32,012 bases of DNA, from the IMG/VR virus record IMGVR_UViG_3300046011_000987, positions 1 through 32,012 of that record. One strand, given 5' to 3'. Shown here piece by piece: positions 2,144-29,087 of this stretch; the first letter of the stretch is position 1, and each line of letters begins with the position of its first letter. The notes below the pieces were generated by a model. It saw only the letters and a program-made list of their open reading frames with translations, made no database searches and had not been told where the DNA came from. Made by a program: the position numbers and the translations under genes. Source of the DNA: a virus.

Positions 2144-3181
2144 ATGAAAATCGCTGAAAGAGTTTTAGACGGCATTAAAACCGCCTTAATTGATGGTGAA
2201 GCCACCGTTAATTTAAAAGTAGATGAAGCAAGCGCGATTACTGGAAGCGGTTCAAATGTTGGTGGTCGCACCTATTTTGACGATGCTTTTGCCGCCGCGC
2301 GTTATGCCAACCCATTTCGTATGGGCGCACGACAAATAACAGCAATGGAATCAGATATTCAATTTGTTGCCAAAACGGGTAATGCCGCAGATGCAACAGA
2401 TCCTTGGGGTTATGCAGTAAACCCAAATAGCGGTTCACCTAATATAAACACAAGCATTTGGCAGTTGCCAATTCGCGTTATTTCAGCACAGTTGCCAATC
2501 CGTAGCGCAGTTTTAAGCGATGTAAACGGTTTGGAAGCCGAAATTGTTGAAGATCTTGCCTTTGAATTTAGTCAAATTGAAGCCGCATCAATGGCGGTCA
2601 ATGATGATCAATCAGGTTCAACAACCACCGTAACAGGCGCAGAAAATGGCTTGCGTGGTTTAACATCTTATACAACTAGCACATCCGCCGCCGCATTTGG
2701 CACTAGCGGAACGGCTATAACTAACGGCATACACACAGTTTTGACCGTTGAAGCAAGCGTTACAACACCAACTTATGACAGCATTGCTAATGTTGCAAGC
2801 GCGTTGCCTGCACAGTATTGGACAATGCCAACAACAGCATGGCACATTCACCCAACTTTGATTGCATCCTTACGCAAATTAAAAAGTTCAACAGGTGGTT
2901 CACCAATGTTCATTGAAGCAGGTAATGAAGATGGTGCGGCTGTTGGTTATATGTTTGGTTTCCCTGTTATCCCTAATCCTTATTTGGATGCACCTGCGGT
3001 TGGCGCAATCCCATTAGTATTAGCAAATTGGGATAGATTCTTAACTATTGCCGATGCTGAAACAATGAACATCAAACGCTTTGATCAAACACAAGCAGGT
3101 TTTGTTACCATTTATGCTGAAATGCGTATGGCATCATCAATCCGCGATGTATTTGCAGGCGTTTACTTGAAAGGCGTTTAA
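2144..3181 (+). CDS. Second HK97-fold capsid protein (paralog, no scaffold domain)
   Basis: This 345-aa protein aligns by eye along its whole length with the shell domain of the preceding capsid protein. Shared blocks include SALTG/SAITG with GGRT, KTGNA with WGYA, TSIWQ, NDDQSGS with GLRGL, QYWT, the RYDQT/RFDQT segment, and SVRDPFAGV/SIRDVFAGV. It has only about 30 residues before the shared part, so it lacks the ~105-residue scaffold domain. The ATG at 2144 has AAAGGA upstream. Its role is not known. It could be a minor capsid protein, for example at vertices as T4 gp24 is to gp23, or a duplicated capsid copy. Capsid fold: confident; function: inference. Confidence 0.85.
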   Translation: MKIAERVLDGIKTALIDGEATVNLKVDEASAITGSGSNVGGRTYFDDAFAAARYANPFRMGARQITAMESDIQFVAKTGNAADATDPWGYAVNPNSGSPNINTSIWQLPIRVISAQLPIRSAVLSDVNGLEAEIVEDLAFEFSQIEAASMAVNDDQSGSTTTVTGAENGLRGLTSYTTSTSAAAFGTSGTAITNGIHTVLTVEASVTTPTYDSIANVASALPAQYWTMPTTAWHIHPTLIASLRKLKSSTGGSPMFIEAGNEDGAAVGYMFGFPVIPNPYLDAPAVGAIPLVLANWDRFLTIADAETMNIKRFDQTQAGFVTIYAEMRMASSIRDVFAGVYLKGV

Positions 3182-3183
3182 TT

Positions 3184-3834
3184 ATGGCGGCGAACAACAT
3201 TAGCGGTGTAGTAAATCTTGCGCCAACGCGCAATCCATTTAACTATGATAAGGTTGTTCAAACAAGCCGCGATTTACAAACACAATGGCTAACTCTTGAT
3301 GAAATTACCCAACAATTAAACTTGTTTGGCGATGAATCACAAGATACCTATTTAAGTGATTTGGAAGTTGCGGTTCGGATGCACATTGAAGATTATTTGG
3401 GCTTACCAATTTTTAATCAGTCTTATACTGTTTATTATGGCGCATCGGCTTTATATGGCACGCCATTAACATTGGATTTGCCTGAAGTTTCACAAAATGG
3501 CGTTACCATAAACAGCGTTAAATATTACAGCGATGCAAGTCCGCCAGTTTTAACAACTGTTGCGGCCAATACATATTTTTATGATGTTACAGGTAACAAG
3601 GTAATTCTTAATGATTTGCCGACTGACCTTAATACATATATGACATCGCCTGTTGTTTGCAATTACACGATCAATTCCAGCATTTTGGCGCAATACCCTG
3701 TTATTAAACAGGCTGGGTTATTATTACTAACCCACCTTTATAACAACAGAAGCGAAACAACGGCTGGGGCTTTACAAAAAATACCTTTTGGGGTGGATGT
3801 ATTGCTTAGACAATATAAACCTTTGGTGATGTAG
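3184..3834 (+). CDS. Head-tail connector (gp6/phiE125 gp8-like)
   Basis: 216 aa. The helical N-terminal half (LTLDEITQQLNLF, then DTYLSDLEVAVRMHIEDYLGLP) and later KQAGLLLLTHLYNNRSET match the pattern of phage connector proteins of the HK97 gp6 / phiE125 gp8 type, which form the adaptor ring below the portal. A beta-rich insert lies between residues ~80 and 165. The gene starts 2 nt after the second capsid gene and precedes the closure protein gene, the expected place. The family call is from pattern and order. Confidence 0.75.
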   Translation: MAANNISGVVNLAPTRNPFNYDKVVQTSRDLQTQWLTLDEITQQLNLFGDESQDTYLSDLEVAVRMHIEDYLGLPIFNQSYTVYYGASALYGTPLTLDLPEVSQNGVTINSVKYYSDASPPVLTTVAANTYFYDVTGNKVILNDLPTDLNTYMTSPVVCNYTINSSILAQYPVIKQAGLLLLTHLYNNRSETTAGALQKIPFGVDVLLRQYKPLVM

Positions 3835-5956: not shown

Positions 5957-6432
5957 GTAAAATAGCATCGGCATTGGGTAATAAGTATCAGGAAAATCGT
6001 TTGTCAGTAATGACACGCACATTTGTTTTGGGCGATCACACATTTCGCGTTCGCGTTCCTGCGGTGCATGAAATTGAAGCAATATATAATTATTACAAAT
6101 CACCAAACCAAGATTTGGTTGATCAAGCATTTAAAAGCATGACCTATGATTTGGTCAGCATTAAAGACACAAATCCCGATGGCGTTGTTTACAGCGATAA
6201 GGATGTGGTTGTTGATGGTCGGTCAATGATGGAAGCCGCCCGTAATAAAGTAATTTTGCAACATAGAATTGTTGAGTATTTTAAATTTTTAATACCTGAA
6301 GATGGCCAATCATTAGCCGATTTAGAATATGCCGACATTGAAGAAGAATTTCCTTTGTCTATACAAATACAAATGATTGATAAAATAGGCGAAGTTATAT
6401 CGCCGGATTACAAGGCCATTAAGGAAAAGTAA
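5953..6432 (+). CDS. Tail assembly chaperone, short form (gpG-like)
   Basis: 159 aa, GTG start at 5953 overlapping the previous stop by 4 nt. Position between the gp10-like gene and the tape measure gene, with a second small ORF in the -1 frame at its end, is the signature of the lambda gpG/gpGT chaperone pair that coats the tape measure before tube assembly. The sequence (TFVLGDHTFRVRVPAVHEIEAIYNYYKS, ending in SIQIQMIDKIGEVISPDYKAIKEK) is consistent but the family is fast evolving, so order is the main evidence. The 0-frame ends GAA AAG TAA at the likely frameshift point. Confidence 0.75.
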   Translation: MSKIASALGNKYQENRLSVMTRTFVLGDHTFRVRVPAVHEIEAIYNYYKSPNQDLVDQAFKSMTYDLVSIKDTNPDGVVYSDKDVVVDGRSMMEAARNKVILQHRIVEYFKFLIPEDGQSLADLEYADIEEEFPLSIQIQMIDKIGEVISPDYKAIKEK

Positions 6433-27676: not shown

Positions 27677-27697
27677 GCAACTTTTATGGGAGTAGTT

Positions 27698-27877
27698 ATG
27701 GAATCAGATTTTGATTATGTTAGGCGCAAATTGCAAAATCCAATATATAACATTGGTGCAATTGCTAATCAATTGGGAATCCAGCGTTACCGGCTGGACA
27801 AGATCATTAAAGGTGGCGATGCCAAATTTAGTTTGATTGAAACATTACGCATTTATTTTAAAGATAGTGCCGCATGA
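27698..27877 (+). CDS. Small HTH protein, Cro-like
   Basis: 59 aa from ATG 27698, which has GGGAG five nt upstream. The ATG at 27686 would lie only a few nt from the predicted transcript start. The segment YNIGAIANQLGIQRYRLDKIIKGG (short form IGAIANQLGIQRYRLDKI) has a helix-turn-helix pattern, followed by SLIETLRIYFK. It is the first gene of the rightward operon, next to operator-like palindromes, like lambda Cro. It probably represses the divergent promoters. ATGA overlap with the nuclease gene. Confidence 0.7.
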   Translation: MESDFDYVRRKLQNPIYNIGAIANQLGIQRYRLDKIIKGGDAKFSLIETLRIYFKDSAA

Positions 27878-28218
27878 CAGAGCATCAAGAGCAGGTAGCC
27901 GTAATAACTTGGTTTCGGCTTCAGCATCGCCAGTATGCAAATTATTTGTTTGCTATACCTAATGGCGGCGTTCGGAACATAGGAACAGCAGTTAAATTAA
28001 AAAAAGAGGGCGTATTGGCCGGCGTTCCCGATCTGTTCTTAATGATACCTAAAAACGGCTATCATGGATTATGGATTGAAATGAAAGTTAAAGGCGGTCG
28101 GGTATCAGATAGTCAAAAAGAATTTATTGGATCGGCAACATTGATGGGTTATCCGGCCGTTGTTTGCTATGGATTTGATGAAGCAAAAAACGAAATAAAT
28201 AATTACTTGCAAAGTTAA
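27874..28218 (+). CDS. VRR-NUC domain nuclease
   Basis: 114 aa, a single VRR-NUC domain of the PD-(D/E)xK superfamily. Motifs in order: EHQEQVAVITWFR, FAIPNGGVRN, GVLAGVPDLFL (metal-binding Asp), LWIEMKVKGGRVSDSQ (ExK plus Gln) and YPAVVCYGFDEA. Phage members are thought to cut branched or flapped DNA in replication or recombination. It follows the Cro-like gene by an ATGA overlap and is the last gene before the structured RNA. Confidence 0.92.
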   Translation: MTEHQEQVAVITWFRLQHRQYANYLFAIPNGGVRNIGTAVKLKKEGVLAGVPDLFLMIPKNGYHGLWIEMKVKGGRVSDSQKEFIGSATLMGYPAVVCYGFDEAKNEINNYLQS

Positions 28219-28235
28219 TTTAGATAAATTAAGAT
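28207..28235 (+). promoter_or_regulatory. Promoter of the structured RNA
   Basis: TTGCAA (28207-28212), 17-nt spacer, TAAGAT (28230-28235). The predicted start is near 28242. The -35 box lies in the last codons of the VRR-NUC gene. Same hexamers as the leftward early promoter. Confidence 0.6.
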
Positions 28236-28240
28236 TACTT

Positions 28241-28256
28241 ATCACTTGGAAGTGAT
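28241..28256. promoter_or_regulatory. Palindrome at the transcript start
   Basis: ATCACTT-GG-AAGTGAT, a 7-bp inverted repeat with a 2-nt centre, lying at the predicted +1. With a one-base bulge the stem extends to TTATCACTT/AAGTGATTAA. It could be an operator, or a 5' hairpin in the RNA that displays the TTGGAAG target box. Confidence 0.6.
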
Positions 28257-28265
28257 TAACTTAGT
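28246..28265 (+). promoter_or_regulatory. Two target boxes (a, b) complementary to the RNA downstream
   Basis: TTGGAAG (28246-28252) is the exact complement of CTTCCAA (28304-28310), and CTTAGT (28260-28265) is the exact complement of ACTAAG (28292-28297). The boxes are in antiparallel order with spacers of 7 and 6 nt, so both can pair at once. This is the layout of a and b boxes with antisense a' and b' in the P1/P7 C4 system. Confidence 0.65.
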
Positions 28266-28351
28266 GGGGCTTCACATACTGACTGGCGGTTACTAAGACC
28301 GTTCTTCCAACCACCCTAAAAAGGTGGAGTCAGTAGTTGAAGCCCTTTTTT
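28266..28351 (+). ncRNA. C4-like antisense RNA candidate with intrinsic terminator
   Basis: GGGCTTCA (28267-28274) pairs with TGAAGCCC (28338-28345). After a 2x2 internal loop, TACTGACT (28277-28284) pairs with AGTCAGTA (28328-28335). This opens into a junction with two hairpins: CGGT/ACCG (28287-28301, loop TACTAAG, two extra G-U pairs possible) and CCACC/GGTGG (28311-28327, loop CTAAAAA). TTTTTT follows, so the 3' end is a terminator. The exposed ACTAAG loop and CTTCCAA linker match two boxes upstream. Fold and complementarity are seen; relation to C4/P4 CI RNA is inferred. It likely controls the replication gene starting at 28365. Confidence 0.75.
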
Positions 28352-28364
28352 ATGGGGTAAACAA

Positions 28365-29087
28365 ATGCACTATTATAAATTTAATATCGCAGACTATCGG
28401 AAAGACACAACACATCTAACCCCGATTGAACATTATATATATCGCAGTTTAATTGATTGGTATTACCTTGATGAACATCCAATACCAAAGGAAACCCAAT
28501 CGGTTATTAGACGGTTATCATTGGGTTATGACATGGTTAATTTGGTTAATAATGTATTGGCTGATTTTTTTGATTTAACTGAAAAAGGTTATGTTCATAA
28601 CCGGATTGAAGTTGATATTTTAGAATTTCATGCTAAAGCAGGAAAAAATAAAGAAAATGGCAAACTAGGCGGCAGACCTGCAAAGCCAATCATAACAAAG
28701 AACAAAACCCAATCGGTTAATTCTGATAACCCAAATCAAAGCGAACCTAACCTTAACCATAAACCATTAACCAATAACCATAAACCAATTAAATACATTC
28801 CACCAATTCCTGCGGAATTATTGTCTGAATGGTTAGCCATTAGAAAAAGAAAACCGGTAACAGAAAGGGTTTTTAACGCATTGGTTAAGGAAGCAAATAA
28901 ACTAGGATGGACTGCTGAACAAGCCGTTATCAAATGTTGCGAAAAGACATGGACAGGATTTGAAGCCGCATGGGTTACTAAAGACAATAAACCATCATAT
29001 CAAGATGCAAGGGAAGCGGCGGCTAGAACAGCCTTTGGTTCATTGCTAACTAATCAAAATAATTTAAAGGTGATCAATAATGAATAA
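28365..29087 (+). CDS. Replication protein with DUF1376 domain
   Basis: 240 aa. The N-terminal part MHYYKFNIADYRKDTTHLTP with EHYIYRSLIDWYYLDEHPIP and LSLGYD is the DUF1376 (YdaU-type) domain found in phage replication initiators. The linker is Asn/Lys-rich (KTQSVNSDNPNQSEPNLNHK). The C-terminal part (LLSEWLAIRKRKPVTERVFN, ending GFEAAWV) looks like a helical loader-binding region. GGGG lies 7-8 nt before ATG, 14 nt after the RNA terminator, so its expression probably needs read-through. It precedes the P-like gene with an 8-nt overlap. Confidence 0.85.
   Translation: MHYYKFNIADYRKDTTHLTPIEHYIYRSLIDWYYLDEHPIPKETQSVIRRLSLGYDMVNLVNNVLADFFDLTEKGYVHNRIEVDILEFHAKAGKNKENGKLGGRPAKPIITKNKTQSVNSDNPNQSEPNLNHKPLTNNHKPIKYIPPIPAELLSEWLAIRKRKPVTERVFNALVKEANKLGWTAEQAVIKCCEKTWTGFEAAWVTKDNKPSYQDAREAAARTAFGSLLTNQNNLKVINNE

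Follow-up and report, generated by a model that had tools for sequence, protein, structure and literature searches.

Can a phage control its replication genes through an RNA that is both their prematurely ended leader and an antisense repressor? This question is raised by a locus in a stretch of viral DNA of 32,012 nucleotides (IMG/VR record IMGVR_UViG_3300046011_000987), which is referred to here as the window. RNA-based phage immunity is known from few systems, namely P1/P7, P4 and N15. From the letters of the window alone, it had been proposed that a C4-type antisense RNA stands before a replication gene and might act as an immunity switch. The element is read here as a divergent C4-type antisense RNA that is probably a self-terminating attenuator of the replication operon, made from the same strand and the same promoter as the operon itself.

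Anatomy of the locus in the window

The sequence-only reading had placed a promoter-like pair, two boxes and a three-way-junction RNA with a closing T6 at 28207-28351, and every one of these features was located as given (Table 1). It had also claimed that the linker and the hairpin loop of the RNA complement the two boxes in the right order. This complementarity is seen in the sequence, and both boxes came up in the right order in 2 of 300,000 mononucleotide shuffles of the 25-nt leader. When the region 28207-28360 was folded, the three-way junction was obtained as proposed, at -48.0 kcal/mol (z = -3.9), and none of 200 shuffles was equally stable. The -35 hexamer of the promoter overlaps the 3' end of the VRR-NUC gene. 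At the other end, the RNA does stand directly before a DUF1376 replication gene, as had been said; the start codon of this gene is the ATG at 28365.

Table 1. Features of the antisense RNA locus, in positions of the window
Feature	Position	Strand	Basis and remarks
Sigma-70-type promoter	28207..28235	+	TTGCAA 28207-28212, 17-nt spacer, TAAGAT 28230-28235; read from the sequence
H0, 5' hairpin AUCACUUGGAAGUGAU	28241..28256	+	Fold; predicted transcript start; presents box 1
Box 1, TTGGAAG	28246..28252	+	Complement of linker 28304-28310; predicted target of the linker; covaries in at least 93 loci
Box 2, CTTAGT	28260..28265	+	Complement of P2 loop 28292-28297; predicted target of the loop; covaries
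Antisense RNA body, permuted three-way junction	28266..28346	+	MFE and centroid fold
P1, outer stem	28266-28284 with 28328-28346 (28266-28274/28338-28346 and 28277-28284/28328-28335)	+	Fold
P2 hairpin	28285..28303 (28285-28291/28297-28303)	+	Loop ACUAA(G) is anti-box 2, 28292-28297
Linker CUUCCAA (anti-box 1), 7 nt, single-stranded	28304..28310	+	Unpaired probability 0.92-1.0 in the window
P3, accessory hairpin CCACC-loop-GGUGG	28311..28327 (28311-28315/28323-28327)	+	Covaries
T6	28346..28351	+	With P1 forms an intrinsic terminator
GGGG, Shine-Dalgarno-like, of the DUF1376 gene	28354..28357	+	Sequence; directly behind the terminator
DUF1376 gene, primosomal / replication-initiation-like, first behind the RNA	28365..29087	+	PF07120 E=3e-22; PHROG primosomal protein E=4e-35

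A few further observations were made in the window. Across the T-run (28343-28357), pairing is also conceivable between the GGGG that precedes the start codon and GCCC, the terminator's 3' arm; this is possibly a mere consequence of both complementing C-rich sequence. The rightward operon is headed by a gene for a 63-aa protein (27686-27877), HTH-like by eye and without Pfam support. In loci L035 and L058, a similar small gene, weakly HTH-like in Pfam, lies directly before DUF1376 at the place of the RNA. The small HTH-like protein could be a Cro-like partner of the RNA or its replacement. Far upstream, two adjacent genes (732-2081 and 2144-3181) both match the major head protein family phrog_10 and are thus tandem capsid-protein relatives.

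Relatives, covariation and box codes

Viral contigs were gathered via the DUF1376 protein and DNA patterns. Thirty-nine distinct copies of the element make up alignment A1, from which the covariance model R1 was built and then searched against the fetched loci; at least 93 loci align full length to R1 and form alignment A2. The linkers and boxes of the loci were assigned through alignment to R1. The model treats the boxes as unpaired sequence, and their pairing lies outside it. No search pattern included the box side, and one scan used the 3' arm and the T-run alone.

The same element is present in at least 93 loci, almost all of them from uncultured phages. The sole BLAST match of the window region in phage records was a short stretch within the DUF1376 gene, and two other variants gave no match, while the variant L311 led to two complete Manatee Spring records. 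When 84,980 genomes of bacteria and archaea were scanned with the exact pattern, six chance matches came up, none of which was accepted by R1. Among 300 genomes of the order to which genome G046 belongs, the model search found one match, on a circular phage contig, although this search scored few candidates per genome and undercounts. The contig (C30 of the assembly G103, from the same order; loci L381-L384) measures about 36.95 kb with a 149-bp end overlap, carries the element before a DUF1376-like gene and has no integrase; it is a free phage or an extrachromosomal element. By the tape-measure protein, the nearest named relative is Methylophilaceae phage P19250A, in which the element is absent. 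The named relatives (the Manatee Spring records and the Methylophilaceae phage) suggest that the carrier phages are mostly freshwater ones. No account of this RNA family was found in a literature search that covered few subscription journals.

Both the stems and the box/anti-box pairs show strong covariation in the relatives. The RNA stems and H0 are paired in 99.1% of the cells of A2, with double-sided changes at 29 of 32 pairs; slid registers gave 37-49%. H0 by itself has double-sided changes in all five stem pairs counted (97.2% of cells paired), and P1 at 15 of its 17 pairs. The boxes and their anti-boxes are paired in 97.4% of 1096 cells, as compared with 29-45% in slid registers, and double-sided changes occur at 10 of the 12 pairs; the pairs of box 2 with the loop alone reach 99.3%. 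The numbers of double-sided cells, which kinship inflates, are 589 against 166 in shuffles for the stems and H0, and 201 compensated cells against 51.1±7.6 for the boxes. Pairs of nearly identical loci carry more weight. Between L327 and L329, 1 of 92 other positions differs, yet box 2 has undergone a compensated change; similarly, L309 and L302 differ at 2 of 99 other positions, yet have two compensated changes in box 1. The match between boxes and anti-boxes is not due to chance, because it was so rare in shuffles of the leader and because it covaries so extensively.

Pairs 5 and 6 of box 1 change between C-G, U-A and A-U, and between G-C, A-U and C-G, respectively. Box 1 has a constant UUGG, which lies in the loop of H0, and the linker a constant CCAA; this suggests a constant nucleation contact beside variable discriminator bases. 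At least 54 box combinations, or codes, were counted across the 93 or more loci. A viral contig of 7.6 kb (L161) holds two copies of the element (1771-1888 and 3276-3390), which have unlike box codes and different genes behind them. A degenerate member was also seen (L215, 4832-4950), in which the complementarity of box 1 to the linker is lost and the T-run far exceeds those of the other loci. Box 1 of this member looks truly broken, whereas the other low-scoring box/anti-box rows look like G-U pairs or alignment shifts.

As for the genes that follow, BLAST links the first of them into a single cluster in 59 of 90 loci. This cluster includes DUF1376, Lin1244/DnaT-like and other, mostly replication-initiation-like, proteins. 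In others, the first place is taken by an HNH or GIY-YIG endonuclease, a methyltransferase, a helicase or a small unknown gene. In about one third of the loci, the first gene is not obviously one of replication. In L056, another gene lies between the RNA and DUF1376. Since near-identical RNAs precede unrelated genes, the RNA behaves as a portable module. In L096, an Rfam int-alpA RNA (RF02996, 40 bits) was noticed directly upstream of the element, at 6066-6147 on the minus strand.

Comparison with C4 and other antisense RNAs

The identification as a C4 RNA stood in part. The P1 boxes were taken from the annotated record, and the layout of P1 C4 from the Rfam alignment and its structure line. 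Like the C4 locus of P1/P7, the present one opens with a promoter; boxes a and b come next, ahead of the RNA, and box a lies in a hairpin. The RNA is likewise a three-way junction, in which the loop of a hairpin contains b' and is succeeded by the a' linker, 7 nt long and single-stranded. The two-box plan, its order, the box 1 hairpin and a likeness of the core to P1 therefore argue for the name; membership of the Rfam family, the junction order and the icd/ant context do not go with it.

A scan with the Rfam C4 model, which the earlier reading had suggested, gave no match to RF01695 at E<=10 in the window or in the P1-like variant L293, and none at the gathering score in seven further members. 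Neither C4 nor any other credible Rfam family was reported on the element with gathering or permissive settings. In the P1 control, the same tools found C4 at 68.8 bits and the a1/b1 motif (RF03163) at 51 bits. RF01695 fails to match because the order of the junction differs: the accessory hairpin, the b' hairpin and the a' linker follow one another in P1 C4, whereas here the b' hairpin comes first, then the a' linker and then the accessory hairpin, an order that is backed by covariation.

The likeness of the core was measured by local alignment to P1 C4. The best variants, such as L293, scored 34 over 31 columns (CTGCTGGTT--ACT-ACGCCAGTCCGCCAAC against CTGCTGGTTTCACTAACGCCAGTCTGTCAAC), and the best of 93 shuffled RNAs scored at most 29 in 100 replicates. 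The 99% point of this null is exceeded by 30% of the loci; the median locus, the type found in the window included, does not exceed it. There are other differences as well. The P1 C4 sequence has no intrinsic terminator at its 3' end, but here the outer stem and the U-run form one; the a2/b2 site at the ribosome-binding site of P1/P7 is absent; and replication genes follow instead of icd/ant. In our reading, the element is a branch of the C4-type RNAs that has diverged and whose scaffold is rearranged; it would work like C4/CI and lies outside RF01695 as it is defined.

P4 is the closest parallel with regard to the gene that is controlled. It has been reported that P4 CI RNA shuts off the replication genes through premature termination (PMC4825925). 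As in P4, the antisense RNA comes from the untranslated leader of a replication operon and would pair upstream of itself (PMC4825925), and premature termination is also what is proposed here, to which the position and the terminator fit. In contrast to CI, which targets seqA upstream and seqC downstream, the present RNA has two short upstream boxes as its candidate targets, and its own stem serves as the terminator.

Plasmid attenuators offer another comparison. The antisense RNAs of pT181 and pIP501 are transcribed from the opposite strand, whereas the present RNA arises when transcription of the same strand terminates. The proposed switch is otherwise like that of the pT181 and pIP501 rep attenuators, in that an RNA in trans would decide whether the leader of a replication gene folds as antiterminator or as terminator, and code differences would act like the incompatibility groups of such plasmids.

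C4-like sRNAs have also been described in Acinetobacter baumannii (Group 1; PMC5320573) and as IsrK of Gifsy-1 (PMC4825925). They share with the present family a constant C4-type scaffold with variable specificity bases, and a box element is common to them and the C4/P4 systems. Those RNAs reside in bacterial chromosomes or prophages and match the Rfam C4 or isrK models, while the present family matches neither.

Folding, mode of action and biological role

Where the transcript starts and ends was examined across the loci. Over at least 93 loci, the mean promoter score ahead of H0 is 8.5 of 12, as compared with 6.8 at randomly chosen positions. In 62 of 93 loci, 6-8 nt separate the end of the -10 hexamer with the best score from H0. 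The transcript should therefore start with H0, the hairpin that presents box 1. The 3' end of the RNA had been taken for an intrinsic terminator upstream of the replication gene, and the family agrees: a T-run of at least five, mostly of seven or eight, lies behind the RNA in 92 of 93 loci. As the terminator lies before the next gene, any transcript that reaches this gene has read through it.

The anatomy of the element, its conservation and covariation, the accessibility of its anti-boxes and its competing folds were all established computationally. In a stepwise fold of the nascent RNA of the window, the boxes pair in cis with the linker and the loop once these are made (28310-28334), and the three-way junction replaces this pairing when the 3' arm of the terminator is made. 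In 91 of 93 loci, box 1 pairs with its own anti-box in the nascent RNA; exchanging the anti-box for that of another code lowers this to 13 of 93. Once the RNA is complete, the mean unpaired probability is 0.91 for the linker and 0.93 for the P2 loop (93 loci). When the 5' leader was cofolded with the finished RNA, trans pairing brought no gain in the MFE model, whose scope does not extend to pseudoknot-like contacts such as those that loop and linker would make. No second in-order copy of a locus's own boxes was found near the downstream start in the loci searched, no conserved ORF with a ribosome-binding site was seen at the boxes, and, as regards a 5' end cut by RNase P as in C4 RNA, no RCCA-like 3' sequence was seen beside the RNA stem.

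The mechanism that we propose is as follows. Transcription would start at H0 and run through box 1 and box 2 into the RNA, where the outer stem and the U-run would act as an intrinsic terminator. In a cell without the RNA, the nascent boxes would pair in cis with the fresh linker and P2 loop. The long cis hairpin would hold the 5' arm of the terminator in its loop, the terminator would be delayed and the polymerase would enter the replication gene. Some transcripts would nevertheless terminate and leave an RNA with an exposed loop and linker. As this RNA accumulates, it would bind the boxes of new transcripts in trans; the cis hairpin would then fail, the terminator would fold and more RNA alone would be made. 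The replication operon would thus be switched off on every genome of the same code in the cell, other codes being unaffected, and phages that share the code would face immunity or copy-number control. We infer the action in trans, along with the efficiency of termination, the processing of the 5' end and the biological role; trans action is suggested by the design of the element and by its changes of specificity.

The wider form of this proposal is held more tentatively. It states that freshwater phages without an integrase or a protein repressor may use an RNA-only, self-terminating switch whose terminated leader is the trans repressor, and that the more than 50 codes may be superinfection-immunity or copy-compatibility groups of non-integrating life styles. 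Some points go against the proposed mechanism. The cis pairing would follow from complementarity alone, even if solely the trans pairing mattered; the cofold in trans showed no gain; about one third of the loci do not have an obvious replication gene in first place; and, as neither an integrase (47 records) nor an S24 repressor (45 records) was found, no lysogen is evident that needs immunity.

The absence of a classical repressor, which had been noted for the window, extends to 45 records of the family in so far as S24 is concerned. The satellite phage P4 has an integrase; among the carriers, which are in many cases records of 30-40 kb and, apart from two circular genomes (MW202544 and the phage contig in G103), may be fragments, a tyrosine integrase (PF00589) was found in 0 of 47 records, a serine recombinase (PF00239) in 0 of 22, ParA (PF13614) in 0 of 22 and S24 in 0 of 45. 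The complete circular GenBank record MW202544, which carries the element, lists no integrase, recombinase, ParA or repressor. Lysogenic or prophage immunity is therefore without genetic support. Since none of the 47 records yielded an integrase, control of superinfection or of copy number is more probable than prophage immunity; candidate roles are a carrier state, superinfection exclusion during infection, and the control of copy number or timing.

It is possible, though on the unlikely side, that the same device is a timer or copy-number control of the lytic cycle, as plasmid antisense RNAs are, and provides no immunity between phages. This explanation differs from the preferred one in biological role alone, and the confidences in the two overlap. 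The lack of integrase, recombinase, ParA and S24 genes agrees with it, as does the target, a replication gene. The codes, on the other hand, diversify amid near-constant flanks, which immunity groups explain directly, although drift or avoidance of cross-talk could also diversify them.

A further alternative is that the element acts in cis alone, as an intra-transcript antiterminator switched by a protein, a ligand or the speed of transcription, and that the terminated RNA is idle in trans. The box/anti-box hairpin of the nascent folds and the terminator of the full RNA suit such an attenuator, and covariation of the boxes would be expected of it too. We consider it unlikely nonetheless. In the terminator form, the loop and linker that make up the anti-boxes are unpaired and are not shared stem strands; that they stay unpaired in the finished RNA, as they do in most of the 93 loci, is needed by a trans-acting RNA and not by a cis-only switch. 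Moreover, box 1 sits exposed in the loop of a hairpin, as it does in P1; the flanks of compensated switches are nearly constant, and the two copies on L161 carry different codes. The core also resembles P1 C4, and P1 C4 acts in trans.

That the RNA works purely as in P1, by blocking translation at a ribosome-binding site with polar termination as the consequence, is improbable in spite of the same box plan and the similar core. Attenuation is preferred over this mode because, in the loci checked, the boxes do not recur near the downstream start; besides, no conserved ORF with a ribosome-binding site was seen at the boxes, and an intrinsic terminator closes the RNA, a feature that the P1 C4 sequence does not show at its 3' end. 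Finally, although the RNA does end in a good intrinsic terminator, the idea of an ordinary terminator between two transcription units with complementarity by chance has already been refuted by the covariation, in addition to the 2 of 300,000 shuffles.

On the preferred reading of a self-terminating, trans-acting leader, RNA-based control would be a common early-operon module of uncultured freshwater phages, detectable from sequence alone. Its scaffold is rearranged with respect to known C4, and its two-part specificity code is readable. If the action in trans is true, the compatibility group of a phage could be predicted from a dozen bases, and seemingly strictly lytic phages would possess immunity or copy control. 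For the evolution of C4 RNAs, a constant core of b' hairpin and a' linker with changeable surroundings is suggested.

Other structured leaders were also noticed before DUF1376. In L047, L050, L053, L012 and L030, another C4-like leader with a different scaffold lies about 180 nt before the gene. The loop of an upstream hairpin (e.g. TTAGTAAC) complements a loop of the structured RNA (GTTACTA; TTGC), and the Shine-Dalgarno-like box of a leader ORF (AGAGAGGG; CAACGGAG; AAGAGG) complements the linker of the RNA (CCCCTTTCT; CTCCGTTG; CCTCTT). The structured RNA overlaps the leader ORF, and the pairs change together between loci. A third structured leader lies directly before DUF1376 in L013, L014, L020, L026, L031 and 14 more loci. 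Its transcript seems to begin at GAAACACGGC..., and it has a GAAAC/GTTTC stem with an inner hairpin. Close to the DUF1376 start, a site that immediately follows the RNA (GGAGGG, AAGGGGT) is complementary to the linker of this leader (e.g. ACCTCC, ACCCTT), and the variants appear to covary.
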